64,000 nucleotides of DNA. It comes from Bacteroidales bacterium (lineage in GTDB: Bacteria; Bacteroidota; Bacteroidia; Bacteroidales; UBA932). Shown piece by piece: positions 18,064 through 31,709 of the stretch (position 1 is its first letter; each line of letters opens with the position of its first letter). The stretch spans positions 1 to 64,000 of the forward strand of contig JAFUGJ010000024.1 in the NCBI GenBank assembly GCA_017469425.1, in the 5' to 3' direction. Position numbers and translations under genes: made by a program. Under the pieces are notes generated by a model. It did no database searches. It had not been told where the DNA came from and was given only the letters and a program-made list of their open reading frames with translations.

Positions 18064-19401
18064 TTAATACATTTTCTTTAATATGTCACAGGCTTTGTGT
18101 ACGGCGTCGAATCCGAAGCTGCTTTCGAGGGCGGCGAAGCGGGTGGCTATTTCTGCGTTGCAGAGATTCCCGATGGACCCTTCGTGGGTGTGGTTGAGCC
18201 TGCCCTTGAAGCTGAAGCGCCTTTCCTGAATCTCCTGCCCTACCTGCCTGTAGGCGTCACGGAACGGAACCCCTTCCCCTACCCTGCGGTTGACTTCTTC
18301 CACGCTGAAGGAGAGGGCGTAGCGGGAATCGGACATGAGGTCTTTGCTTACCTGCATCTCCCCTATTGCAAAGCTTGCAATGTCAAGACAGTCGCCAAGT
18401 TCTTCAAACAGTGGCAGATATATTTCTTTCACAAGCTGCATGTCGCGGAAATACCCGGAAGGAAGATTCGCACAGATGCTTCGAATCTGTTCCGGAGCCG
18501 CTGCGATACGGTTGCAGTGCGCCCTGATGAGCTCGAAGACATCGGGGTTTTTCTTGTGTGGCATGATGCTGGAGCCGGTAGTGAGGGCGTCGGGAAGCTT
18601 CACGAAACCGAAATTCTGGCTGTTGAAAAGGCAGCAGTCGAAAGCGAGCCTGCCGAGGGTTTCAGCAACGGAAGCCAGGGCGGATGCGACTATGCGCTCC
18701 GTCTTTCCCCTGCTCATCTGGGCATATACCACATTGTAGTCCAGGCCGTCGAAACCAAGGAGGCTGGTGGTGAGGGTCCTGTCGAGTGGTGCCGAAGAAC
18801 CATATCCGGCTGCGGAGCCCAAAGGGTTGCGGTTAGTCACCTTCCATGCTCCGAGAAGCACTTCCAGGTCGTTGCACAGGCTTTCGGCGTAGGCTCCGAA
18901 CCAAAGTCCGAACGACGAAGGCATGGCTACCTGCAGATGGGTGTAGCCCGGCATGAGGATGTCCTTGCATTCCTCGCTCCTTGCCTGCAGGACGGCGAAC
19001 AGCTCCTTTACCTTTCCCACGATGCCCTCTATCCCGGCACGGGAAAAGAGCTTCAGGTCAAGCAGGACCTGGTCGTTGCGGGAACGCCCAGTATGCACCT
19101 TCTTTCCAAGGTCGCCAAGCTTCCGGGTAAGCAGGAATTCAACCTGTGAATGAATGTCCTCGATGCCTTCTTCAATGACGAATTCTCCGGCCAGGGCCTT
19201 GGCATGAAGGGCTTCCAGCTCCGGAAGCAGCTGCCTCAGTTCGCCGTCTTCCAGCAGGCCCACCTTGCATAGCATGGTGATGTGCGCCATGGTTCCGAGA
19301 ATGTCGTAGGGTGCAAGAAGGAGGTCGAGCTCCCTGTCTTTTCCCACGGTGAACTTCTCAATTTTCGAATCGGTAGCAAAGCCTTTGTCCCAAAGTTTCA
19401 T
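18064..19401 (-). CDS. argH: Argininosuccinate lyase
   Basis: This encodes ArgH, 445 residues, which splits argininosuccinate to arginine and fumarate, the last step of arginine synthesis. The superfamily signature GSSIMPHKKNPDVFE lies at about residues 265-279, with the catalytic Ser in its flexible loop; THLQVAMPSSFGLW and HTGRSRNDQVLLDLKLF supply the other two conserved regions. The ATG overlaps the argE stop by 3-4 bases, so the two are coupled. It is about 15 residues shorter than E. coli ArgH but has all conserved blocks. Confidence 0.97.
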   Translation of the reverse strand: MKLWDKGFATDSKIEKFTVGKDRELDLLLAPYDILGTMAHITMLCKVGLLEDGELRQLLPELEALHAKALAGEFVIEEGIEDIHSQVEFLLTRKLGDLGKKVHTGRSRNDQVLLDLKLFSRAGIEGIVGKVKELFAVLQARSEECKDILMPGYTHLQVAMPSSFGLWFGAYAESLCNDLEVLLGAWKVTNRNPLGSAAGYGSSAPLDRTLTTSLLGFDGLDYNVVYAQMSRGKTERIVASALASVAETLGRLAFDCCLFNSQNFGFVKLPDALTTGSSIMPHKKNPDVFELIRAHCNRIAAAPEQIRSICANLPSGYFRDMQLVKEIYLPLFEELGDCLDIASFAIGEMQVSKDLMSDSRYALSFSVEEVNRRVGEGVPFRDAYRQVGQEIQERRFSFKGRLNHTHEGSIGNLCNAEIATRFAALESSFGFDAVHKACDILKKMY

Positions 19402-20450
19402 AAGTTGAAGCCATCTAATAATTTGACATAGCCTTCAATGGCGGAGGTTATTTCGCTGCGGAGGACGAATTCGTCGGCCCCGTGTGAACGGGAGGATTCC
19501 CCCGGGCCAATCTTGACTGCCGGGAAATCCGCGAGCGCCCAGTTGCTTAGCGTGGGAGAGCCGAATGTGCCGAAGCCCAGTTCCGCCGCCCTGCGCACAA
19601 ATGGATGTGACGCATCAGTATGCGAGCTCTTCCTCCGCATTGAGCGGGGCGTCACATCGCTTGCTACATTCTCCCGTATGGTCTGCAGGATTTCTTCGTT
19701 GGAGTACATGCCGTTCGGGCGTACATCGACCACGAACCTGCATGTGTCCGGCACCACATTATGCTGGGTACCCGCTTCTATCATGGTGACGCTCATCTTT
19801 ACAGGACCGAGGAACTCCGACACCCGGCCAAAGCGATATCTGCGCAGCCAGTCGATGTCTTTCAGCGCCTTGTAAATGGCATTATCCCCTTCTTCCCTTG
19901 CGGCGTGCCCGCTCTTGCCATGCGCCGTGCAGTCCAGTACCATAAGCCCCCTCTCAGCAAGGGCCAGTCGCATTCCGGTCGGCTCGCCGAAAATGCCGAA
20001 ATCCACATGTCCGATTTCCGGCAGCAACTGCTCCATCCCTCCCCTGCCGCTGTTCTCTTCTTCAGCGGTCGCGCTCCATATCAGGCGGTAGGGCTGTTCT
20101 TTTCCGGTCAGTTCTTCAAATGCTGCAAGCAGCGCCACTACCGAAGCCCCGTCGTCATTGGAGCCGAGCCCGTAAATCCTGTCGCCTTCGAGGGCCGGGT
20201 CGTACGGGTCGCGGGTGTAGCTTGCCGCAGGACGGACGGTGTCGATATGCGCGTTCAGCAGTATTGCAGGCCCTTTGCATGGCCTTGTGTCGGCTGAATC
20301 CAGCCACAGGTTGTTGCCTTTTCTATGGCAGTGCAGCCCTCTTGTCTGAAGCCAGCTTTCAAGCATGGCCGCAACCCGGTCTTCTTCCCCGCTGTGCGAG
20401 GGAATGGCTATCATCCGGCGCAGAAGCTCTATGTAATCGGCAATGTGCAT
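19398..20450 (-). CDS. argE: M20-family N-acylornithine/N-acylcitrulline deacylase
   Basis: This encodes a 350-residue M20 zinc deacylase. LLNAHIDTV gives the first His-x-Asp metal site, GLGSNDDGAS the bridging Asp, TAEEENSGRGG the catalytic Glu pair, and SHGADEFV the C-terminal His. In a pathway that uses a succinylornithine-type transcarbamylase the expected substrate is the N-acylated citrulline, giving free citrulline for ArgG. The ATG at 20450 (MHIADYIELL) is chosen; an upstream in-frame TTG is inside the -7 element TATATTTG (20460-20467). It heads the argE-argH transcription unit, separated from the other arg genes by the divergent ATP-grasp gene. Confidence 0.88.
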   Translation of the reverse strand: MHIADYIELLRRMIAIPSHSGEEDRVAAMLESWLQTRGLHCHRKGNNLWLDSADTRPCKGPAILLNAHIDTVRPAASYTRDPYDPALEGDRIYGLGSNDDGASVVALLAAFEELTGKEQPYRLIWSATAEEENSGRGGMEQLLPEIGHVDFGIFGEPTGMRLALAERGLMVLDCTAHGKSGHAAREEGDNAIYKALKDIDWLRRYRFGRVSEFLGPVKMSVTMIEAGTQHNVVPDTCRFVVDVRPNGMYSNEEILQTIRENVASDVTPRSMRRKSSHTDASHPFVRRAAELGFGTFGSPTLSNWALADFPAVKIGPGESSRSHGADEFVLRSEITSAIEGYVKLLDGFNL

Positions 20451-20459
20451 ATATGTGTT

Positions 20460-20467
20460 CAAATATA
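20460..20467 (-). promoter_or_regulatory. -7 element of argE
   Basis: TATATTTG on the minus strand, nine bases before the argE ATG. No ARG-like box pair like those at carA and argR is seen here. Confidence 0.5.
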
Positions 20468-20518: not shown

Positions 20519-21379
20519 GTGAAGCCAACCGTTTCAGAGTTCCTGAAAGTGTATTTCAGATACCGCCGCAAGATGGGCAAGTGGGGCAATCTCCGCCATC
20601 CCTCCCTCTTTTCCGAGAAGATGCAATGGCTCAAATTGTATTACAGAAATCCCCTCTATACCACCATGGCCGACAAAAATGCGGCAAAAGCTTATGTCGA
20701 TTCCCTTCTCGGTCCGGGTTACACCGTTCCCTCTCTCGGGATTTATGAAAAGGCCGGGGATATAGCCTGGGAAGCACTCCCCTCCCGCTTCGTGCTCAAG
20801 TGCACGCACGACAGCGGAGGCTACCGTATCTGCAAGGATAAAGAAGTTTTTGACAAGGAGGAAGCCGCCTCTTTTCTGGACAAGCGCCTGAAAATGGATT
20901 ACTCCGTGCACAAGTCGGAATGGGTCTATGCCGGCATTCCGCACCTCATTATTGCGGAGGAATACCTTACGGAAGGGCCCGAGACTGATTTGAACGGCCT
21001 TCCTGACTACAAGTTCATGTGTTTCGACGGAAAGGTTCACAGCGTGATGGTCTGCATCGACCGTGGAATAGGAGAGGTCAAATACTATTTCTTCGACAGG
21101 AACTGGAGCCTGCTTCGCATCAACCAGTGGGGCGCCTCGGCTCCGAAAGGGTTCACGCTCCCCCGCCCGGAGAACATGGATGAAATGTTCGACATTGCAG
21201 CCAGGCTGAGCAATGGAATCCCGTTCGTGAGGGTGGACCTCTACAATGTGCACGGAAAGATTTATTTCGGGGAATTCACCTTCTTCCCCAAGAGCGGGCT
21301 CGACCTCGACCTGCTTCCTTCTACCGACCGTCTGTACGGGGAGATGATGCATCTGCCTGCACCAGGGTCTTCCCTATGA
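20519..21379 (+). CDS. TupA-like ATP-grasp protein (polysaccharide/teichuronopeptide type)
   Basis: This encodes 286 residues of the ATPgrasp_TupA family. Hallmarks are the N-terminal MGKWGNLRHPSLFSEKMQWLKLYYRNPLYTTMADK, the nucleotide-binding strand FVLKCTHDSGG, the pair IIAEEYL and PDYKFMCFDGKV, and a C-terminal VRVDLYNVHGKIYFGEFTFFP that contains the metal-binding acidic residues. Relatives are found in capsule and exopolysaccharide loci as amidoligases or glycosyltransferase-like enzymes. The GTG start keeps the conserved N-terminus. It sits inverted between argB and argE, and its 3' end overlaps argB tail-to-tail by 59 bases. It is the only non-arginine gene within this run. Confidence 0.82.
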   Translation: MKPTVSEFLKVYFRYRRKMGKWGNLRHPSLFSEKMQWLKLYYRNPLYTTMADKNAAKAYVDSLLGPGYTVPSLGIYEKAGDIAWEALPSRFVLKCTHDSGGYRICKDKEVFDKEEAASFLDKRLKMDYSVHKSEWVYAGIPHLIIAEEYLTEGPETDLNGLPDYKFMCFDGKVHSVMVCIDRGIGEVKYYFFDRNWSLLRINQWGASAPKGFTLPRPENMDEMFDIAARLSNGIPFVRVDLYNVHGKIYFGEFTFFPKSGLDLDLLPSTDRLYGEMMHLPAPGSSL

Positions 21380-22082
21380 AGACTTCCCTGACTCCCCTGC
21401 CGAGCGAGGCGAAGGCATTGTCAATTTTGGGAATCATCCCTCCGGAAACCGCAGCGGATGACTTCAGCGCCAGGTAGGAATCTGGAGTTATGCTTCGGAT
21501 GAGCACTCCGTCCTTATCCAGTACACCCTCTTTTTCAAAACAATACCTGAGACTTACTTCGTATCGGTCGGCAAGGGCGGCGGCCAGCTCCGCTGCTATG
21601 GAATCTGCATTGGTATTGAGAAGGGTGGTTCCGTCGAAACTAAGCGGCGCGAACACGGGTGTGACACCGCTTTCCAGAAGTCTGCAGATTGCATCCGCAT
21701 TCACTTCGCGAACATCGCCCACATAGCCGTAGTCGATTTGTGCGGAAGCGCGTTTTACTGCCTTGATGCAGGCAAGGTCGGCTCCGCTCAGCCCAAGGGC
21801 GTTCTCCCCTCTATGCTGCAGGGCTGCAACTATGTTCCTGTTCACCAGGCCGCCGTAGGTCATAATGGCAACTTCGAGGGTGGCCTTGTCGGTTATCCTC
21901 CTGCCGTCCACCATTTTTACCGGGATGCCGAGCCTGCCGCAGAGTTCGCTTGCGCTCCTTCCTCCCCCGTGGACGAGAATCTTCGGCCCTTCCACCTCAT
22001 GGAAAGAGTCGAGAAAAGAGCCGAGGGATGCGGGATTCTCCACGATGGCCCCGCCAACCTTCAATATGGAAAGCTTTCTCAT
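21321..22082 (-). CDS. argB: Acetylglutamate kinase family (N-acylglutamate kinase)
   Basis: This encodes ArgB, 253 residues, an amino-acid kinase that phosphorylates the gamma-carboxylate of N-acylglutamate. ILKVGGAIVE and ILVHGGGRSASEL form the phosphate-binding glycine loops; VDGRRITDKATLEVA carries the substrate-binding Arg; GGMIPKIDNA near residue 217 holds the catalytic Lys. In a succinyl-type pathway the real substrate may be N-succinylglutamate. The ATG overlaps the argF' stop by 4 bases. Its 3' end overlaps the opposing ATP-grasp gene by 59 bases. It is last in the argR-argG-argC-argD-argF'-argB run. Confidence 0.95.
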   Translation of the reverse strand: MRKLSILKVGGAIVENPASLGSFLDSFHEVEGPKILVHGGGRSASELCGRLGIPVKMVDGRRITDKATLEVAIMTYGGLVNRNIVAALQHRGENALGLSGADLACIKAVKRASAQIDYGYVGDVREVNADAICRLLESGVTPVFAPLSFDGTTLLNTNADSIAAELAAALADRYEVSLRYCFEKEGVLDKDGVLIRSITPDSYLALKSSAAVSGGMIPKIDNAFASLGRGVREVFIGKTLVQADASSPRTDGR

Positions 22083-23026
22083 AGCGATTCGAGCATCCTC
22101 TTCATCACCACCTGTGCCGACACCACCCTGTTGGCAGCCTCGGGAATAACCAGGCTCCGGGCTGAATCGATAACTTCGTCGGTCACAATCACATTGCGCC
22201 TTACGGGCAGGCAGTGCATGAAGTAAGCGTTGTTGGTAACTGCCATGTGTGCGGCGTCTATGGTCCAGGAAGGGTCCTTGCAGAGAATCTTGCCGTAGTC
22301 GCGTACCGACGACCAGTTCTTGGCATACACGAAGTCCGCCCCTTCCAGGGCTTTCATCTGGTCGTATTCTATGCGGGCGTTTCCGGCAAACTGCGGCTCC
22401 AGTTCGTATCCTTCAGGCTGGGTGATGACAAGGTCGACATCCGCCGCGTTCATCCATTCCGCAAAGGAATTCGGAACGGCCTGCGGGAGTGCCCGGGGAT
22501 GCGGCGCCCAGCTCAGCACGACCTTGGGCCGCGTGCATTTGCGGTATTCCTCTATGGTGATGAGGTCTGCGAATGCCTGACAAGGGTGAACCGTGGCCGA
22601 TTCCAGGCTGATGACGGGCTTTCCGCTGTACTGCACGAACTGCTGCAGCACGGTTTCGGCATAGTCTGCCTCCTTGTCGGCAAGCCCTGCGAACGACCGC
22701 ACCCCGATGATGTCGCAATAGCTTCCTATGACCGGGATGGCCTCGCGCAGATGCTCGCTCCTGTCGCCGTCCATCACCACGCCGAGCTCGGTTTCGAGTT
22801 TCCAGCTGTCGCCGTTCACATTCAGCACTATGGGGTTCATTCCCAGGTTCAGCGCGGCCTTCTGCGAACTCAGGCGGGTGCGCAGGCTGCTGTTGAAAAA
22901 TACCAGGATGATGGTCTTGTTTTCTCCGAGATGCTTCCAGCCGAAGGGATTGGCCTTGACTGCGGCGGCTTCTTTCAGCGCTGCGTCGAGCGGACCTATG
23001 TCGCCTACATGGAAAAAGGATTTCAT
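22079..23026 (-). CDS. argF': N-succinylornithine carbamoyltransferase-type enzyme
   Basis: This encodes a 315-residue transcarbamylase matching the Bacteroidetes N-succinyl-L-ornithine carbamoyltransferase rather than ordinary ArgF. The carbamoyl-phosphate motif reads FFNSSLRTRLSSQKAALNLGMN (residues 43-64); WKLETE and MHCLPVRRN are also characteristic. The specificity residue at position 90, Pro in the Bacteroides enzyme and Glu in the acetylornithine enzyme, is Ser here, which is compatible with the succinyl type. The frame continues open upstream, but the ATG giving MKSFFHVGDIG is the family start and overlaps argD by 4 bases. Confidence 0.93.
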   Translation of the reverse strand: MKSFFHVGDIGPLDAALKEAAAVKANPFGWKHLGENKTIILVFFNSSLRTRLSSQKAALNLGMNPIVLNVNGDSWKLETELGVVMDGDRSEHLREAIPVIGSYCDIIGVRSFAGLADKEADYAETVLQQFVQYSGKPVISLESATVHPCQAFADLITIEEYRKCTRPKVVLSWAPHPRALPQAVPNSFAEWMNAADVDLVITQPEGYELEPQFAGNARIEYDQMKALEGADFVYAKNWSSVRDYGKILCKDPSWTIDAAHMAVTNNAYFMHCLPVRRNVIVTDEVIDSARSLVIPEAANRVVSAQVVMKRMLESL

Positions 23027-24144
23027 ATCAGTTCTTGCAATGCGTTGACGAATGTGCAGGCGTCTTCCTTGCTCGTGCAGAGCGGGGCAAGGAGCCTGAT
23101 GATGTTTTTCCCGGCAACACCGGTGAAAATGTGCTTTTCGTATAGAAGGGCGCTCCGTATGGGGGCGACATTGCAGTTGAATTCGATGCCGAGCATCAGC
23201 CCGCGCCCGCGAACTTCCTTGATTAAAGTAGAGGCAGGGATGATGGACGAGAGGTATTCGCCCGTTTCGAGAGCGTTCTGCACGAGCTTTTCCTCCACGA
23301 TGATGTCGAGAACGGCATTTGCTGCTGCCATTGCGAGGTAATTTCCTCCGAATGTGGTTCCCAGCCTTCCCTTCACCGCCTTGAATTCCGGCGAAAGCAT
23401 GATGGCTCCGCAGGGGAAACCGTTGGCTATGCCCTTCCCCATTGTGATGATGTCGGGACGGATGCCTGCCCACTGATGGGCGAAGAAGCGTCCGCTGCGC
23501 CCGTATCCACTCTGTACCTCGTCGAGAATCAGCACCGCACCATGTCGCGTGCAGAGCTCTCGGAGTTCCTTCATGAAGGTGTCGGAGGGGATGTTGATGC
23601 CTCCGCATCCCTGTATTCCTTCTATGATTACCCCGGCCACATCGCCTTTGGCAAGTTCCGCTTCCACTCCGGCGGCGTCGTCCAGATTGCAGAAGGTGAC
23701 TTTGTGCACCGCATTGAAAGGCGACACTATTGCTGGATTGTCGGTTACCGCAACAGCTCCCGATGTCCTGCCGTGGAAACTTTTCCGGAAGGCAATGATG
23801 CGGTCTTTTCCCGTATGGAACGACGCCATCTTAAGTGCATTCTCATTGGATTCCGCTCCCGAATTGTCGAGGAAAAGGGAATAGTCGCCATAGCCGGAAA
23901 CTTCCCCCAGCTTGCGGGCGAGTTCTTCCTGGAGCGGGTTGTGCACGGAGTTGGAATAGAATCCTATCTTTTTCGCCTGCTGCGTAAGGGCTTCGACATA
24001 TTTGGGATGGCAGTGTCCCACCGAAATTACGGCATGCCCCCCGTAGAGGTCGAGATATTTGTTTCCTTCACTGTCCCAGACCGTACAGCCGGAGGCTTTT
24101 ACGGGGGTGACATCGAACAGCGAATATACATCGAAAAGTTCCAT
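23023..24144 (-). CDS. argD: N-acylornithine aminotransferase
   Basis: This encodes a 373-residue class III PLP aminotransferase that converts N-acylglutamate semialdehyde to N-acylornithine with glutamate as donor. GGHAVISVGHCHPKYVEAL near the N-terminus, FLDNSGAESNENALKMA for cofactor binding, ILDEVQSGYGRSGRFFAHQ with the PLP Asp, and ITMGKGIANGFPCGA with the Schiff-base Lys are all present. The order argC-argD-argF'-argB is tightly packed (3-base gap upstream, 4-base overlap downstream), so one message is very likely. Confidence 0.95.
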   Translation of the reverse strand: MELFDVYSLFDVTPVKASGCTVWDSEGNKYLDLYGGHAVISVGHCHPKYVEALTQQAKKIGFYSNSVHNPLQEELARKLGEVSGYGDYSLFLDNSGAESNENALKMASFHTGKDRIIAFRKSFHGRTSGAVAVTDNPAIVSPFNAVHKVTFCNLDDAAGVEAELAKGDVAGVIIEGIQGCGGINIPSDTFMKELRELCTRHGAVLILDEVQSGYGRSGRFFAHQWAGIRPDIITMGKGIANGFPCGAIMLSPEFKAVKGRLGTTFGGNYLAMAAANAVLDIIVEEKLVQNALETGEYLSSIIPASTLIKEVRGRGLMLGIEFNCNVAPIRSALLYEKHIFTGVAGKNIIRLLAPLCTSKEDACTFVNALQELI

Positions 24145-24147
24145 AAT

Positions 24148-25113
24148 CTACCATCTGTTTGCCTTCAGCGCGAGCCCGGTCTTTTCCGGGATGCCGAAGA
24201 GTATGTTCATGTTCTGTACCGCCTGGCCGGAAGCTCCCTTCAGGAGATTGTCGATGACGCAGGTAATGTGGAGTTTGCTCCCGTATTTGCGGGGATATAC
24301 CAGGGCTTTGTTGGTTCCAGTGACCATTTTGAGGTCGGGATTTTCCTTGCAGACGAAGGTAAAGGGTTCGTCGCGGTAGTATTCTTCATATAGCTGGACG
24401 GCCTCTTCTTCGGTGAGTCCGCAGTCAAAATATGCCGACACCAGTATCCCCCTTGTGAAATCCCCCCGGATGGGTACGAAGTTGATGTTTCCGCTCCATG
24501 AAGGGGAAAAACTCAGCAGGGTTTCGCGGATTTCCGCAAGATGCTGGTGGGTGAATGGCTTGTAGATGGAAAGGTTGTCGCTCCGCCAGCTGAAATGCGT
24601 GGTTTCGCTGGGCTTCTGCCCCGCCCCTGTCGAGCCGGTGATGCCGGTAATGTGCACTTCGGAAAGCAATCCCGCTTTTGCGGCGGGCAGCAGGGCAAGC
24701 TGGATGGCGGTGGCGAAACATCCCGGATTTGCAAGATGCTTTGCTCCCGCTATCCTGCTTCTGAAGGCTTCAGGGAGCGCGTAGATGTAATCTCCGGCAT
24801 CTGCCGCCAGGCGGAAGTCGTTGCTGAGGTCTATGATGCATCCGGAATATCCGGGAGGGAAGGATGCGGTAATCTGTGCGGATTTGCCATGGCCGGAACA
24901 GAGGAACACCACATCGGCATCGCTCACCGGAGCGGATTCGGAAAAGGTCAGGGAACAGTCGCCGAACAGGTCGGCGTGGGCCTTCCACAGCGCTTCTCCG
25001 GCATGGCTGGCGCTCTGCGCAAACACGATTTCGACCTCCGGATGGTTAATGAGTATGCGGATGAGCTCCCCTGCCGTGTAACCGGCTGCGCCTATGATTC
25101 CTGCCTTTATCAT
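24148..25113 (-). CDS. argC: N-acyl-gamma-glutamyl-phosphate reductase
   Basis: This encodes a 321-residue NAD(P)H-dependent reductase that makes N-acylglutamate semialdehyde. The N-terminal Rossmann motif GIIGAAGYTAGELIRIL is followed by the catalytic Cys in KHLANPGCFATAIQLALLP and by TGSTGAGQKPSETTHF. The length is typical of the short, Bacteroidetes-type ArgC. The ATG overlaps the argG stop by 4 bases, and argD begins 3 bases after the stop. Confidence 0.96.
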   Translation of the reverse strand: MIKAGIIGAAGYTAGELIRILINHPEVEIVFAQSASHAGEALWKAHADLFGDCSLTFSESAPVSDADVVFLCSGHGKSAQITASFPPGYSGCIIDLSNDFRLAADAGDYIYALPEAFRSRIAGAKHLANPGCFATAIQLALLPAAKAGLLSEVHITGITGSTGAGQKPSETTHFSWRSDNLSIYKPFTHQHLAEIRETLLSFSPSWSGNINFVPIRGDFTRGILVSAYFDCGLTEEEAVQLYEEYYRDEPFTFVCKENPDLKMVTGTNKALVYPRKYGSKLHITCVIDNLLKGASGQAVQNMNILFGIPEKTGLALKANRW

Positions 25114-26891
25114 AGGATGTCATTCTCTATTTCCGAAGCTTCTTCGGGGTGTGCAAGATAATAAGCGCGGAGAGGAGTCGAACTTACTTTGATAAATCCC
25201 TTTGCATCGTCTGAACTCCAACCTTTCTGAATCTCGCCGTATTCGCCGAGCTTGTTCTTCACGAGGTCGTCGGGGCTGTCGACGCCCACAGGCTCGAAAC
25301 CGTAGGGTCTCAGGAGCATGGTAACGGTGCCGTTTACATTGCGCTGGCTGTTTTCGAGCATAGCTTCAATGTCGCGCATGACAGGTTCGAGATACTGGCT
25401 TTCATGCAGGAACATCCCGTACCAGTTAGCCACCTGGTCTTTCCAGTACTGCTGCCATTTGCTGAGGGTGAATTTTTCCAGGAACTTGTGCGCGGCGATG
25501 ATAAGGATGGCGGCTGCCGCTTCGAATCCTACACGGCCCTTGATGCCTATGATGGTGTCGCCCACATGCATGTCGCGTCCTATGCCGTAGGCGGAAGCGA
25601 TTTCTTCCACCTTGCGTATGGCCTCGGGGCCATTGGAAAAATGTTCGCCGTTCACTGCGGTGAGCACGCCTTTTTCAAATTCAAGGGCTATGGTTTCGCT
25701 GCCGTCTTTCACCACCGGTTTAAGGTAGGCGCTTTCCGGAAGCCCCTGCTTCGAATCCAGAATCTCCCCTCCGCAAATCGAAGTTCCCCAAAGCCCGACA
25801 TTGTAGGAATATTTGAGTTTTTTGAAGTCGGCGGGGAATCCGTGGCTGTTGAGATAATCCACCTCATATTCGCGCGTGAGCGAGAGGTCTCTCGTGAGGG
25901 TGATGATTTCGATGCCGGGAGCTGCAACCAGGAAGGTCATGTCGAAGCGGACCTGGTCGTTGCCCGCTCCGGTAGAGCCGTGGGCGATGGCATCGGCTCC
26001 TATCTGCTTGGCGTAACGCGCGATGGCAAGGGCCTGGAAAATGCGCTCCGACGACACGGAAACAGGGTAAGTTCCGTTTCGCAGCACATTGCCGTACACC
26101 ATGTAGCGTATGCTCTTCTCGTAGTATTCGTCCGTGACATCGAGGGTGACATATTTCACCGCACCGAGTTTATAGGCATTTTCCTCATTGGCTTTGAGCT
26201 GCTGCGGGGAGAATCCGCCGGTGTCGGCACACGCGGCGTATACTTCGTAACCCTGGCGGGTCAGGTACATTACGGTGAAGGAGGTGTCCAGTCCGCCGCT
26301 GAATGCCACCACGACTTTTTTCTTCCTTCCGTCGGGCGCTTTGCCTCCCGTGCCGTGTACTGCAGGATTGTAGAGCATTCCGGTGCAGAGGCAGCGGGTG
26401 AAACTGTTTCGGCAGAGGATGTCGTAGTTGACGCAGGTTTCGCAACCCTTCCAGAATTTGGGGTCGGTGGTAAGGTCGGCGAAAGTGACGGGATGATACC
26501 CCAGCGCCGTGTTGATTTTCATGACGGCGGCACCCGTGGTGAGCCCGAATATCTTGGCACCCGGGAATTTCTTTTCGGAAAGCTCGAATGCGGCTTTCTT
26601 GATGCGCTTCGCAATCCCCTGCCCCCTGTACTCTTCTTTTACGATAAGTCCGGAGTTGGCCACGAAACTTTCGTTTTCCCAGCTCTCGATGTAGCAGAAT
26701 CCCACGAATTTGTCGCCGTCCATGGCTATGATGGCTTTGCCTTCGCGGATTTTGCTTTCCACATATTCGCTTTTCCTGCGGGCTATTCCCGTGCCTCTGA
26801 CCCTGGCGGCGTCTTCAATCGTCTTCAGGATTTCATCTACATATTTAAGGTGGGTTTCATTGGCAACTGAAACCGTTACTTTGCTTTCCAT
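25110..26891 (-). CDS. argG: GNAT acyltransferase fused to argininosuccinate synthase
   Basis: One uninterrupted frame of 593 residues encodes two enzymes. Residues 1-145 are a GNAT domain with the acyl-CoA loop VKEEYRGQGIAKRI (84-97). Residues 150-169 hold a Cys cluster (Cys150, 153, 160, 167, 169). Residues 190-593 are a complete argininosuccinate synthase with the ATP PP-loop AFSGGLDTS (196-204) and HGSTGAGNDQVRFD. In Bacteroides the equivalent GNAT protein is, to my knowledge, a separate gene next to argG. No argA, argJ or other N-acylglutamate synthase is seen in the window, so I infer that the GNAT half makes N-acetyl- or N-succinylglutamate. The gene lies 5 bases after argR. Confidence 0.9.
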   Translation of the reverse strand: MESKVTVSVANETHLKYVDEILKTIEDAARVRGTGIARRKSEYVESKIREGKAIIAMDGDKFVGFCYIESWENESFVANSGLIVKEEYRGQGIAKRIKKAAFELSEKKFPGAKIFGLTTGAAVMKINTALGYHPVTFADLTTDPKFWKGCETCVNYDILCRNSFTRCLCTGMLYNPAVHGTGGKAPDGRKKKVVVAFSGGLDTSFTVMYLTRQGYEVYAACADTGGFSPQQLKANEENAYKLGAVKYVTLDVTDEYYEKSIRYMVYGNVLRNGTYPVSVSSERIFQALAIARYAKQIGADAIAHGSTGAGNDQVRFDMTFLVAAPGIEIITLTRDLSLTREYEVDYLNSHGFPADFKKLKYSYNVGLWGTSICGGEILDSKQGLPESAYLKPVVKDGSETIALEFEKGVLTAVNGEHFSNGPEAIRKVEEIASAYGIGRDMHVGDTIIGIKGRVGFEAAAAILIIAAHKFLEKFTLSKWQQYWKDQVANWYGMFLHESQYLEPVMRDIEAMLENSQRNVNGTVTMLLRPYGFEPVGVDSPDDLVKNKLGEYGEIQKGWSSDDAKGFIKVSSTPLRAYYLAHPEEASEIENDIL

Positions 26892-26896
26892 GACAA

Positions 26897-27352
26897 TCAG
26901 ATGTTTTTGTTCCTAATTTCGCCTAATACAGACGACAGGCTCTGCAATACCTGCTCCTGCTTGAATGGGGTGCGCAGGGCAAGGATGATGGTATCGTCGC
27001 CGGCAATGCTGCCTGCCACTTCCTGCAAGGGCGCTGCATCAATCTGGGATGCTATCGCCGCTGCAAAGCCGGGAATGGTCTTGATGACGGCGAGGCATGC
27101 GGTAAACTCTATGCTGAGCACGCCGGAGGGAGATTTGCCTCCGTTTTTCCGGCTTTCGCCGAGAATGTAGCGGTAACCGGCATCGGCAGTATGCTGTTTG
27201 ATGATTCCAAGTTCTTTGAGGTCGCGCGACAAGGTTGCCTGGGTGGCAGCTACATCAAAGGAAGCAAGCTTGGAGAGGAGTTCTTCCTGGCTCTGTACTG
27301 CTTCCTTTGTGATGATGCTGCGGATAATCTTTTGGCGTTCTTTCTTATCCAT
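26897..27352 (-). CDS. argR: Arginine repressor
   Basis: This encodes ArgR, 151 residues. Residues 1-75 form the winged helix-turn-helix DNA-binding domain (RQKIIRSIITKEAVQSQEELLSKL then QATLSRDLKELGIIK); the C-terminal hexamerisation domain binds arginine through EVAGSIAGDDTIILA. It probably represses its own operon and carAB when arginine is plentiful. Paired ARG-like boxes straddle the -7 element of its promoter. The gene sits between carB (81 bases upstream) and argG on the same strand. Confidence 0.96.
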   Translation of the reverse strand: MDKKERQKIIRSIITKEAVQSQEELLSKLASFDVAATQATLSRDLKELGIIKQHTADAGYRYILGESRKNGGKSPSGVLSIEFTACLAVIKTIPGFAAAIASQIDAAPLQEVAGSIAGDDTIILALRTPFKQEQVLQSLSSVLGEIRNKNI

Positions 27353-27432: not shown

Positions 27433-30400
27433 TTAGTATTCGTCCCAGGCTTTTATCTCGATATTCTGCATGTTAATGGTGCATAACGAGCGGATATATG
27501 CCGAGGCGAGGCGTCCGTCGGTAAAGAGCGGAATATTGCTGTCGATGGCGGTTCTCCTGATAATGAATCCGTCCGCGAGCTCCTTTTCCGAGAAGTTTTT
27601 CGGAATGTTCACCACCATGTCCACTTCGTGTTTTTTTATGAGCTCCAGCACCTGGGGGAAGGTGCCAGCCATGACTTTGTTCGCTGTTTCCGAGGGCCAC
27701 AGGGCGCGCCTGGCCTTGATGCCGTTTTCGTATAGGTACCTCCAGCTCCCTTCGGTGGCGTAGATTTCGAAGCCGTTTGCATCGAGCATCCTGCACGCAG
27801 GAAGCAGTTCCGCTTTCTGCATGGGATTGCCCGAAGACAGCACGACCTTTTTCCCTCCTACCCCGTTTCCAACGGCAATCATGGCCTTCAACAGGGCCTC
27901 ATCGACATTCGTGGCAAGGCATGCCGCTTCGCCGGTAGAGGCCATGTCCACCCCGTGCAGCGGGTCGGCTCCCTGAAGGCGGGCAAAAGAAAACTGCGAT
28001 GCCTTCACTCCTATGTAATCCAGGTCGAAGGCCGCCTTGGGAGCGGGTTCGGGATGCAGCCCCAGCATGGCTTTTGTCGCAAGGCGGATGAAGTTGAGTT
28101 TCAGCACCTTGGATACGAAGGGAAAACTCCTCGACGCCCGGAGGTTGCACTCTATTACCTTGACGACATTATCCTTTGCGAGAAACTGTATGTTGAAGGG
28201 GCCGCAAATCTTGAGTTCCGCAGCTATTTTGGCAGCGGCCTTCCGCACGCGCCTGACGGTTTCCACATAAAGTTTCTGGGCGGGAAACACAATCGTGGCG
28301 TCGCCCGAATGTACCCCTGCATATTCCAGATGTTCCGAGATTGCGTATGCAAGAATCTTCCCGTCGTCCGCCACTGCGTCGAATTCTATCTCCTTGCATT
28401 TTGAGATGAATTTGCTCAGCACCACCGGGTGCTCCGCCGAAACTTCGGCCGCTTTGGACAGCACCTCTTCCAGCTTGCTGCTGTCGTGGCAGACATTCAT
28501 GGCCGCGCCGGACAGCACATAGGACGGACGCACCAGCACAGGGTATCCCACCTTTGCGATGAACTCATCAACTCCTTTCATGTCGGTCAGTTCGCTCCAC
28601 TCCGGCTGGTCAATGCCGAGGGCATCGACTATTTCCGAGAATTTGTGCCTGTCTTCCGCCCTGTCTATATCGGTGGCGGAGGTGCCCAGGATGGGAATCC
28701 CGTTTTGCCTTAGGCTGAGTGCCAGGTTGTTCGGAATCTGCCCTCCTACCGAAACTATCACTCCGTAGGGAGCCTCCAATTCGGCGATGTCCAGAACCCT
28801 CTCCAGACTCAGTTCCTCAAAATACAGCCGGTCGCAGCTGTCATAGTCTGTGGAAACGGTTTCGGGGTTGTAGTTTATCATCACTCCCCTCCACCCGTTG
28901 CGCCGCACCTCGTCGAGCGATGTGACGGAACACCAGTCAAATTCCACGGAACTGCCGATGCGGTAGGCGCCCGACCCAAGCACAATCACCGATTTGCCAT
29001 CCTGTTCCGGTGCAATGTCGCTGCTGCTGCCATTGTAAGTCAGATACAGGTAATTTGTCCGTGCGGGAAATTCCGCTGCGAGGGTGTCGATTTGCTTTAC
29101 CACGGGAAGGATGCCAAGCTGCTTGCGGTATTTTCTGACCTCCTGCTCACCGGAACCCGTTGCAAGGGCAATCTGCGAATCCGAAAAGCCCATGCATTTA
29201 GCCTTTTTCAGCAGCTCCGGCCCTGCCAGGGCGGCTGCTCCTTTCGCGCACAGGGCTTTCCATATTTGCGCAATCCCGGATAATTTTTCCAGGAACCATA
29301 GGTCGATGCCGGTGAGGCTGTGAATTCGCTGCGGGCTGTAGCCTTGCTGCAGGGCATCTGCAATAATGAAAATGCGCCTGTCGGTAGGTTCGCTGAGGGC
29401 TTCGTCCATATCTCCGTCATAGGGGGAATTGCCCGTGAAGCCTTTGCTGCCCTGCCCTATCATCCTGAGTCCTTTCTGTAGCGCCTCTTCGAAACTACGC
29501 CCTATGCCCATCACTTCGCCTACCGACTTCATCCCGGTGCCGATTTTGTGCGAGACACCGCTGAATTTGGCAAGGTCCCAGCGCGGTATCTTGCAGACGA
29601 CATAATCCAGCGCGGGCTCAAAGAATGCGGAGGTGTTTCCGGTAACCGGGTTGACAAGCTCCGCGAGCCCGTAGCCCAGACTCAGCCTGGCTGCAACCGC
29701 TGCGAGAGGATATGCCGTCGCCTTGGATGCGAGGGCGGACGAGCGGCTGAGGCGGGCATTCACCTCAATCACCCTGTAGTCGGTAGAGAGAGGGTCGTAG
29801 GCGAACTGTACATTGCATTCGCCTACTATTCCGAGGTGCGCCACAATCTTCAGCGACAGTTCCCGCAGGAAATGGTAGTCCTTGTTCGAGAGGGTCTGCG
29901 AAGGAGCCACCACGATGCTCTCGCCGGTATGGATGCCGAGCGGGTCCAGGTTTTCCATGTTGCAGATGGTGACGGAGTTGCCGTAGCGGTCGCGCACAAC
30001 CTCATATTCGATTTCTTTCCAACCTTTCAGGCTCTTCTCTATCAGAACCTGGGGCGAAAAGGAAAAAGCTTTGTCGCACAAGGCATTAAGTTCTTCATCA
30101 CAGGAAGCGAAGCCGGACCCCAGGCCGCCCAGAGCATAGGCGGCGCGGACGATGACAGGATAGCCCAGGGCGGACGCGGCCTGAAGCGCTTCGGAAAGGT
30201 TTCCGGCAGGATGCGAACTGATGGTCTTCACCCCGATTTCGGAAAGCCGGGCAACGAACCTCTCGCGGTCTTCGGTATCCTCTATGGTCTGTACCGGGGT
30301 TCCCAGCACCTTGACTCCATATTTGTCGAGTATGCCTTTGCGCCACAGTTCCACGCCGCAGTTCAGCGCTGTCTGCCCTCCGAACGAGAGCAGGATGCCG

Positions 30401-30633
30401 TCCGGCCTCTCCTTTTCTATCACTTTTTCGGCATATTCTGCATTCACGGGCAAAAAGTAAATCTTGTCCGCATAAGTTTCCGAGGTCTGCACCGTAGCGA
30501 TGTTCGGATTCAGCAGCACTGTGCTTATTCCCTCTTCTTTCAGTGTTTTGAGGGCCTGGCTGCCGCTGTAGTCGAATTCGCCGGCCTGCCCTATCTTGAG
30601 GGCGCCAGAACCTAATAACAGCACTTTTTTCAT
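27433..30633 (-). CDS. carB: Carbamoyl-phosphate synthase large subunit
   Basis: This encodes CarB, 1066 residues, which makes carbamoyl phosphate from bicarbonate, ATP and the ammonia delivered by CarA, for arginine and pyrimidines. Two homologous ATP-grasp halves are visible, beginning LLLGSGALKIGQAGEFDYSG and, near the middle, VIVLGSGAYRIGSSVEFDWCS; each has the NARLSRSSALASKAT or NLRASRSFPFVSKV active-site strand. The C-terminal allosteric MGS-like domain (about 930-1066) is present. Overlaps carA by 4 bases. The full length is normal, with no truncation. Confidence 0.97.
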   Translation of the reverse strand: MKKVLLLGSGALKIGQAGEFDYSGSQALKTLKEEGISTVLLNPNIATVQTSETYADKIYFLPVNAEYAEKVIEKERPDGILLSFGGQTALNCGVELWRKGILDKYGVKVLGTPVQTIEDTEDRERFVARLSEIGVKTISSHPAGNLSEALQAASALGYPVIVRAAYALGGLGSGFASCDEELNALCDKAFSFSPQVLIEKSLKGWKEIEYEVVRDRYGNSVTICNMENLDPLGIHTGESIVVAPSQTLSNKDYHFLRELSLKIVAHLGIVGECNVQFAYDPLSTDYRVIEVNARLSRSSALASKATAYPLAAVAARLSLGYGLAELVNPVTGNTSAFFEPALDYVVCKIPRWDLAKFSGVSHKIGTGMKSVGEVMGIGRSFEEALQKGLRMIGQGSKGFTGNSPYDGDMDEALSEPTDRRIFIIADALQQGYSPQRIHSLTGIDLWFLEKLSGIAQIWKALCAKGAAALAGPELLKKAKCMGFSDSQIALATGSGEQEVRKYRKQLGILPVVKQIDTLAAEFPARTNYLYLTYNGSSSDIAPEQDGKSVIVLGSGAYRIGSSVEFDWCSVTSLDEVRRNGWRGVMINYNPETVSTDYDSCDRLYFEELSLERVLDIAELEAPYGVIVSVGGQIPNNLALSLRQNGIPILGTSATDIDRAEDRHKFSEIVDALGIDQPEWSELTDMKGVDEFIAKVGYPVLVRPSYVLSGAAMNVCHDSSKLEEVLSKAAEVSAEHPVVLSKFISKCKEIEFDAVADDGKILAYAISEHLEYAGVHSGDATIVFPAQKLYVETVRRVRKAAAKIAAELKICGPFNIQFLAKDNVVKVIECNLRASRSFPFVSKVLKLNFIRLATKAMLGLHPEPAPKAAFDLDYIGVKASQFSFARLQGADPLHGVDMASTGEAACLATNVDEALLKAMIAVGNGVGGKKVVLSSGNPMQKAELLPACRMLDANGFEIYATEGSWRYLYENGIKARRALWPSETANKVMAGTFPQVLELIKKHEVDMVVNIPKNFSEKELADGFIIRRTAIDSNIPLFTDGRLASAYIRSLCTINMQNIEIKAWDEY

Positions 30634-31709
30634 AACATTGCCTTGAATTCGTCGAACAAAAATCTGGTATCCGTGGGGCCGCTGGCGGCTTCGGGGTGGA
30701 ACTGGACGGAGAAGAAGGGTTTGCTGCGGTGCCGGATGCCTTCGTTGGAGCCGTCGTTCATGTTTTCAAACCAGCTTTCCCATCCGTCAGGCAGGCTCGA
30801 CGCGTCCACCGCGTAGCCGTGGTTCTGCGAACTGATGAAGCAACGCTTGCTTCCGAGCATCCGCACCGGCTGATTGTGGCCCCGGTGACCATATTTCAAC
30901 TTGTATGTAGTGCCTCCCGCCGCCCTTGCAAGCAGCTGGTTGCCCATGCAAATCCCGAATATGGGCCTGTCTTCCTGCATGGCTTTGCGGATCTTTTCCA
31001 CCGCCGCGCCGCAGAGCTCCGGGTTGCCCGGCCCGTTGGAGATGAACAGTCCGTCGTAATCGAGCTTGCTGAAATCGTAATTCCAGGGAACTCTCACTAT
31101 TCGGAGCCCGCATCCGAGCAGGCAGCGTAGGATGTTGTGCTTGACCCCGCAGTCGAGAAGCGCCACGGTTTTGCTGCCCGTTCCGTATACTATCGGTTCT
31201 TTGCAGGATACGAATTCGAGCTGGTTCTCCCCGGAGGGGTCGTAAAGCGATGCAGGGGCGGCGGAACCTTCTGGAACTATGGCACCCAGCATGGAACCGT
31301 TGTCGCGCAGGTGCTTGGTAAGTTCCCGCGTATCGATGCCGAATATTCCCGGTATGCGATACTCCTTGAGCCAGGAGTCCAGGCTTCGCACCGCATCCCA
31401 ATGGCTGAAATTCTGCGAATAGTCGCTGATGACAAGCCCCCTCACCCATATCCTTTCCGACTCGAATGCCTTTGAAATGCCGTCGGCGTCGAAAGCGTCG
31501 GCGCTCACTCCGTAGTTGCCTATGAGCGGATATGTGGCGCAGAGAATCTGCCCGCTATATGACGGGTCGCTGAGGCTTTCGGGATAGCCTACCATTGCGG
31601 TGGAGAATACCACTTCGCCGGAACCGGCCCCATCCCAGCCGAAACCGAATCCCTCGAAGCGGCTTCCGTCGCTGAGAATCAGACTTGCCTTTTTTGATAG
31701 ATTGGTCAT
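30630..31709 (-). CDS. carA: Carbamoyl-phosphate synthase small subunit
   Basis: This encodes CarA, 359 residues, the glutaminase partner of CarB. The N-terminal domain (ASLILSDGSRFEGFGFG to TRELTKHLRDNGSM) is followed by a class I amidotransferase domain with FGICMGNQLLARA (nucleophile Cys) and SVQFHPEAASGP (His-Glu). The promoter carries two ARG-like boxes around the -7 element, so transcription should fall when arginine is high. It is divergent from rlmD. It heads the carA-carB pair that directly precedes the argR operon. Confidence 0.97.
   Translation of the reverse strand: MTNLSKKASLILSDGSRFEGFGFGWDGAGSGEVVFSTAMVGYPESLSDPSYSGQILCATYPLIGNYGVSADAFDADGISKAFESERIWVRGLVISDYSQNFSHWDAVRSLDSWLKEYRIPGIFGIDTRELTKHLRDNGSMLGAIVPEGSAAPASLYDPSGENQLEFVSCKEPIVYGTGSKTVALLDCGVKHNILRCLLGCGLRIVRVPWNYDFSKLDYDGLFISNGPGNPELCGAAVEKIRKAMQEDRPIFGICMGNQLLARAAGGTTYKLKYGHRGHNQPVRMLGSKRCFISSQNHGYAVDASSLPDGWESWFENMNDGSNEGIRHRSKPFFSVQFHPEAASGPTDTRFLFDEFKAML

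Follow-up and report, generated by a model that had tools for sequence, protein, structure and literature searches.

The window, by which we mean the whole analyzed stretch of 64,000 nucleotides (contig JAFUGJ010000024.1 of a Bacteroidales bacterium, lineage UBA932), carries an arginine gene cluster on its minus strand in the order carA, carB, argR, [GNAT-argG], argC, argD, argF', argB, argE-like and argH. The gene following argR joins a GNAT acyltransferase domain to argininosuccinate synthase in one open reading frame. The features, from upstream to downstream, are as follows.

30630..31709, minus strand: carA
27433..30633, minus strand: carB
26897..27352, minus strand: argR, arginine repressor (profile matches)
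25110..26891, minus strand: fused gene argA2-argG, an open reading frame of 593 aa with an ATG start
26457..26891, minus strand: GNAT domain, residues 1-145, of the putative ArgA2/BT3761 kind (Pfam and alignment; family name as used in the available text of PMC9026213)
26385..26444, minus strand: Cys segment, residues 150-169 (C150, C153, C167 and C169 invariant; C160 variable)
26376..26378, minus strand: ATG of Met172, within the GNAT part, the sole in-frame ATG near the junction
26316..26372, minus strand: linker, residues 174-192; in split relatives this place is taken by the tail of the GNAT, a stop codon and the start of argG
25113..26315, minus strand: predicted argininosuccinate synthase core, residues 193-593 (Pfam; PDB relatives)
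24148..25113, minus strand: argC, sharing 4 bases with the end of the fused gene
23023..24144, minus strand: argD
22079..23029, minus strand: argF', N-succinylornithine carbamoyltransferase type, with Ser90
21321..22082, minus strand: argB
19398..20462, minus strand: argE-like M20 deacylase
18064..19401, minus strand: argH, a gene of its own

The first-pass annotation of this DNA had described a single frame uniting a GNAT domain, a five-Cys segment at residues 150-169 and a complete ArgG, and all of this was confirmed: the minus-strand frame runs for 593 codons, contains the Pfam domains of both partners and has cysteines at residues 150, 153, 160, 167 and 169. Read on the plus strand in frame 1, 25110..26891 is interrupted by stops. 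The neighbors that it had listed (carAB, argR, argC, argD, argF', argB and argH) are likewise present, its argE being the argE-like gene. The longest argF' reading frame (22079-23608, minus strand) has a 193-residue N-terminal extension that overlaps argD and lacks a family match; the Met at 23029 is the likely start. A TupA-like ATP-grasp gene (PF14305; 20519-21379, plus strand) sits between argB and argE, at a place where a collinear locus from the same genus (L205) has only about 150 bases. The operon order is common to the window, a same-genus genome that also has the fusion (G602; 76% DNA identity over 10.3 kb) and the split locus of RGIG3711 (L093).

Two GNAT models match the N-terminal part of the fused protein above cut-off, PF13508 at residues 52-111 (E 6e-7) and PF00583 at residues 45-117 (E 6.6e-7). 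Both ArgG domains are full length: PF00764 at 192-353 (E 2.9e-36; model positions 1-162 of 162) and PF20979 at 361-575 (E 2.4e-32; 1-217 of 219). The ArgG half scores below the NCBIfam argG cut-offs (TIGR00032, 253.2 bits against 268.2; the other listed argG models are also below theirs), and its assignment as a predicted argininosuccinate synthase is based on Pfam, PDB relatives and the operon. The stand-alone neighbor gene that the first-pass annotation proposed to look for in Bacteroides was found in Bacteroides fluxus (L045), which stands in here for BT3761 and Cabys_1732 as the relative for GNAT identity; its proteins are 60.6% (GNAT) and 79.8% (ArgG) identical to the two halves.

The GNAT half had been put forward as the only visible candidate for N-acylglutamate synthesis, and it is still the best candidate for this predicted role, ArgA and ArgJ being absent from the genome search. 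Profile searches of the rest of the genome gave no match to ArgJ (PF01960) and, for ArgA (TIGR01890), only the argB locus below cut-off; a search for further copies of the fused protein's GNAT in the genome was also negative. The assembly is 94.05% complete and 6.29% contaminated, in 103 contigs, and, being incomplete, may lack an argA or argJ that the organism has. The GNAT half is encoded within the arginine operon, and the fused GNAT occurs with a succinyl-type ArgF' and without detected ArgA (genome 94% complete). The window's ArgF' aligns over its full length with 2g7m, 2fg6 and 1js1 and has Ser at position 90; these structures are presumably B. fragilis entries, 2g7m with an engineered change at position 90. 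The available text of PMC7311316 lists S, P, A or V at this position for a succinyl preference of the carbamoyltransferase. Because of Ser90 and this rule, the route is probably the succinyl one, and the GNAT product is likely, though not settled to be, N-succinylglutamate. A candidate role of the ArgA2/BT3761 kind in arginine synthesis is already published and not new: in the portions available, the BT3761 gene is described as important for growth of B. thetaiotaomicron without arginine (PMC7311316; PMC9026213), its product is said to take part in arginine synthesis as a probable N-succinylglutamate synthase (PMC7311316), and ArgA2 is proposed as N-succinylglutamate synthase from its operon place and co-occurrence (PMC9026213).

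Loss of two signals accompanies the fusion. Between the CxC motif and the first ArgG strand, the other two frames of the window contain neither a stop nor an ATG. In frame, the single ATG is that of Met172, which still belongs to the GNAT part, and codons 194 and 195 are GTG; the ATG of argG itself has been lost along with the stop of the GNAT gene. Met172 and the GTG codons could in principle allow internal initiation, such that free ArgG is also made from the fused messenger. This is distinctly unlikely, given that four other fused loci (L036, L037, L080 and L115) have GTG or TTG codons but no in-frame ATG in this region, and that many split relatives also have Met at the place of Met172, which is therefore not kept for internal initiation.

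A sequencing error concealing a stop near codon 180-190, which the first-pass annotation had named as a possible undoing of its reading, was not borne out, since the fusion is found in 17 genomes of the genus and the argG ATG is lost. Counts at genus, family, order and class level are of joint matches without stops, with DNA checks on rows with long open frames. Among the matches listed, 17 of 200 genus genomes, the window included, have the open fusion, one per species; the search for the same domain order thus added 16 fused genomes to the window. A match below 1e-40 was present in 133 of the 200 among those listed, and the fusion is accordingly a minority state in the genus (17/133 with a strong match, among the matches listed). 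The family sample contained 4 fused genomes of 149, again with the window included and among the matches listed (L112, L115 and L117 checked at the DNA level). No fusion besides the window's appeared among the matches listed for 295 genomes of the order (140 of them matching) and 395 of the class (191 matching). Eight of 80 named records are fused, all titled as MAGs, and no cultured carrier is known; their titles refer to feces of horse, rumen and reticulum of goat, and colon of roe deer, and Candidatus Cacconaster equifaecalis is among them. Further rows from the genus and class searches, 33 in all and mostly with long open frames, proved split at the DNA level. A first impression of about 10 other fused genomes in the order was rejected, as their joint matches cross in-frame stops, and the long open frames in many other rows reflect read-through of stops, those fetched rows that hold both genes being split.

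Could the fusion nevertheless be an artifact, a stop codon having been lost through faulty sequencing or assembly? The window's genome is in 103 contigs, each of the four fusions outside the main group described below is on a single assembly (L080, L084, L115 and L117), and L084 retains a Met at the argG start. For the main group, however, error is refuted by the spread across species, and the linkers of 7-20 residues, the loss of the argG ATG as well as the stop, and the fused state of both the window and G602, which are 90% identical in protein, also speak against it. We regard an error as scarcely credible.

Most of the split loci examined have the two genes side by side, with gaps ranging from overlap to a few hundred bases, and split GNATs have a C-terminal tail with a median of 24 residues (range 1-83; 191 rows, near-copies included). 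The argA2-argG adjacency looks old, because the Caldithrix locus is given as argAGCBEH in the available text of PMC5317091. The two genes are not always neighbors in the order: GNAT and ArgG matches are on separate contigs in G064 (C1 and C20), G074 and G178. Two types of arg operon occur in the genus, whose ArgG shares about 72-90% identity with the window's in one type and about 52% in the other; they may reflect operon replacement or transfer. Misbinning of the contig, or a foreign operon, was considered on account of a same-genus version only 52% identical (G008); the collinear same-genus G602 makes it unlikely.

The fusion probably arose more than once, because a single clade of all fused rows was rejected (AU p = 0.00014; 53-row tree with 18 fused rows), and with it one origin of all fusions. 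By a quick method, the fused label requires 6 changes on the 141-row tree, at least 4 of them by well-supported branches. L080 and L115 fall amid split relatives in both trees, as does L084 in the 141-row tree (it was left out of the 53-row tree). One clade for the 15 main fused rows was marginal (AU p = 0.036), and this group was chosen after a first tree had been seen; it may represent one gain with losses or several gains. The split L093, L051 and L119 lie among or near the main fused rows with weak support. L051 and L119, whose GNATs are divergent, may be re-separated genes. From the CxC region to the ArgG strand, the main group has linkers of 7-20 residues; those of L080, L115 and L117 are 11-17 residues long, and that of L084 is 27. 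L117 (G375, same genus) is fused and on a very long branch of unsure place; its GNAT is 47-48% and its ArgG 67-68% identical to those of the window.

Both halves are under strong purifying selection, fused and split. Across eight fused pairs with a value, dN/dS was 0.022-0.115 for GNAT and 0.024-0.077 for ArgG (pairs share members, and two rows were used twice), compared with 0.011-0.039 (6 pairs) and 0.007-0.025 (5 pairs), respectively, for split pairs. The higher fused values may hint at mild relaxation, weakly, since several dS values exceed 1 and are often saturated. These values, together with the long branch of L117, are what might be expected if the GNAT half had turned into a regulatory or structural domain of ArgG that no longer makes N-acylglutamate. 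Yet the fused rows keep the family-invariant residues, and argB, argC, argD and argF' are present in a genome whose searches turned up neither ArgA, ArgJ nor a further copy of this GNAT, so that with an inactive GNAT the pathway would lack its first step. Loss of catalysis is therefore highly improbable.

The Cys segment, which the first-pass annotation had placed between the two enzymes, is not a junction feature of the fusion: four of the five cysteines are invariant in stand-alone relatives too. Cys150, 153, 167 and 169 are present in 141 of 141 nonredundant relatives (19/19 fused and 122/122 split), whereas Cys160 is Cys in 8 of the 19 fused rows and is not conserved. Since the four are shared with split relatives, the site is best read from these alignments as a trait of the GNAT family and not of the fusion. 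A class search agreed: 22 of 23 new loci had the GNAT, 21 of these with the four-Cys pattern (L223 had no GNAT in its stretch). In L059 and L210, a five-residue insertion in the Cys segment brings an additional Cys, that of L059 lying between the first two cysteines. The spacing in the window, CX2C-X13-CXC, has the form of a metal site, which the four cysteines probably constitute, perhaps for zinc or Fe-S. No solved structure covering the segment was found; alignments with those solved GNATs that were found end at profile position 140, before the cysteines.

Taken together, these observations make it likely that the gene encodes a genuine bifunctional arginine enzyme, an ArgA2-type N-acylglutamate synthase joined to argininosuccinate synthase. 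The N-terminal part, to about residue 173, would catalyze step 1 as an ArgA2-type N-acylglutamate synthase, probably with succinyl-CoA, and residues 193-593 would catalyze the second-to-last step as argininosuccinate synthase. The two genes would have been neighbors in a compact operon beside argR, and loss of the argA2 stop and the argG start would have placed both active sites on one chain. We infer that both halves are active, that succinyl is the acyl group and that the four cysteines bind metal. The main effect may be fixed 1:1 co-production, perhaps with co-assembly on the ArgG oligomer, rather than channeling, which is disfavored because the two steps are not consecutive.

Alternatively, the fusion may work allosterically, the two halves touching so that step 1 is controlled by arginine or by a ligand of ArgG such as citrulline or ATP. 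Some linkers between the CxC region and the first strand of ArgG are only 7 residues long and might hold the halves near each other, and a similar proposal has been made for argH(A) in the available text of PMC1382215; however, linker length varies from 7 to 20 residues within the main group, and recurrence of the fusion where the genes are simply neighbors could also result from drift. We consider such control unlikely. An extended version, in which first-step flux is coupled to the ArgG ligand state in one oligomer, the four-Cys site (Fe-S or zinc) renders step 1 responsive to redox or metal, and repeated fusions were selected for this control, would be very unlikely.

The preferred reading, a bifunctional enzyme, makes the fused protein a new domain combination of known enzymes, each half being an enzyme type already described. 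No description of an ArgA2-ArgG fusion was found in a search of titles and abstract beginnings in the open literature. The GNAT half resembles ArgA2/BT3761 of Bacteroidota and Cabys_1732 of Caldithrix, as judged from where it lies in the operon, the surrounding pathway and its identity to the Bacteroides relative; fusion is not mentioned for these in the available portions of PMC7311316, PMC9026213 and PMC5317091. The ArgG half resembles Bacteroidota argininosuccinate synthase of the BT3760 kind, as its 79.8% identity to the B. fluxus enzyme indicates, but differs in having a GNAT at its N-terminus and no start codon of its own. The available text on BT3761 gives genetics and mentions no assay (PMC7311316; PMC9026213), and the fused gene offers a natural single-gene construct with which a Bacteroidota N-acylglutamate synthase could be tested with ArgG as internal control. 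It also draws attention to the invariant four-Cys site of the ArgA2 GNAT family, a site for which we found no solved structure.

Other fusions of a glutamate N-acyltransferase to an arginine enzyme or fold are the classical ArgA with its amino acid kinase domain, the bifunctional NAGS/K and the Haliangium NAGS-ArgC; as described in the available text of PMC4490483, these have other partners and other GNAT types. The nearest precedent, going by the accessible parts of the sources, is argH(A) of marine gammaproteobacteria, the H-NAGS of Moritella and other Alteromonas/Vibrio-like bacteria, in which ArgH bears a short NAGS domain (PMC1382215; PMC4490483). It can complement an E. coli argA mutant, and those who described it proposed sensitivity to arginine as well as shared regulation (PMC1382215; PMC4490483). 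In both it and the window's protein, a glutamate N-acyltransferase domain is joined to an enzyme acting late in arginine synthesis. In argH(A), as described there, the partner is ArgH, is N-terminal and is joined to a GNAT of the short ArgA kind, whereas in the window the partner is ArgG and is C-terminal, the GNAT is ArgA2 with the four-Cys segment, and argH is separate. The window's protein indicates that first-step/late-step fusions, already known with ArgH, have formed with ArgG as well, probably on more than one occasion.
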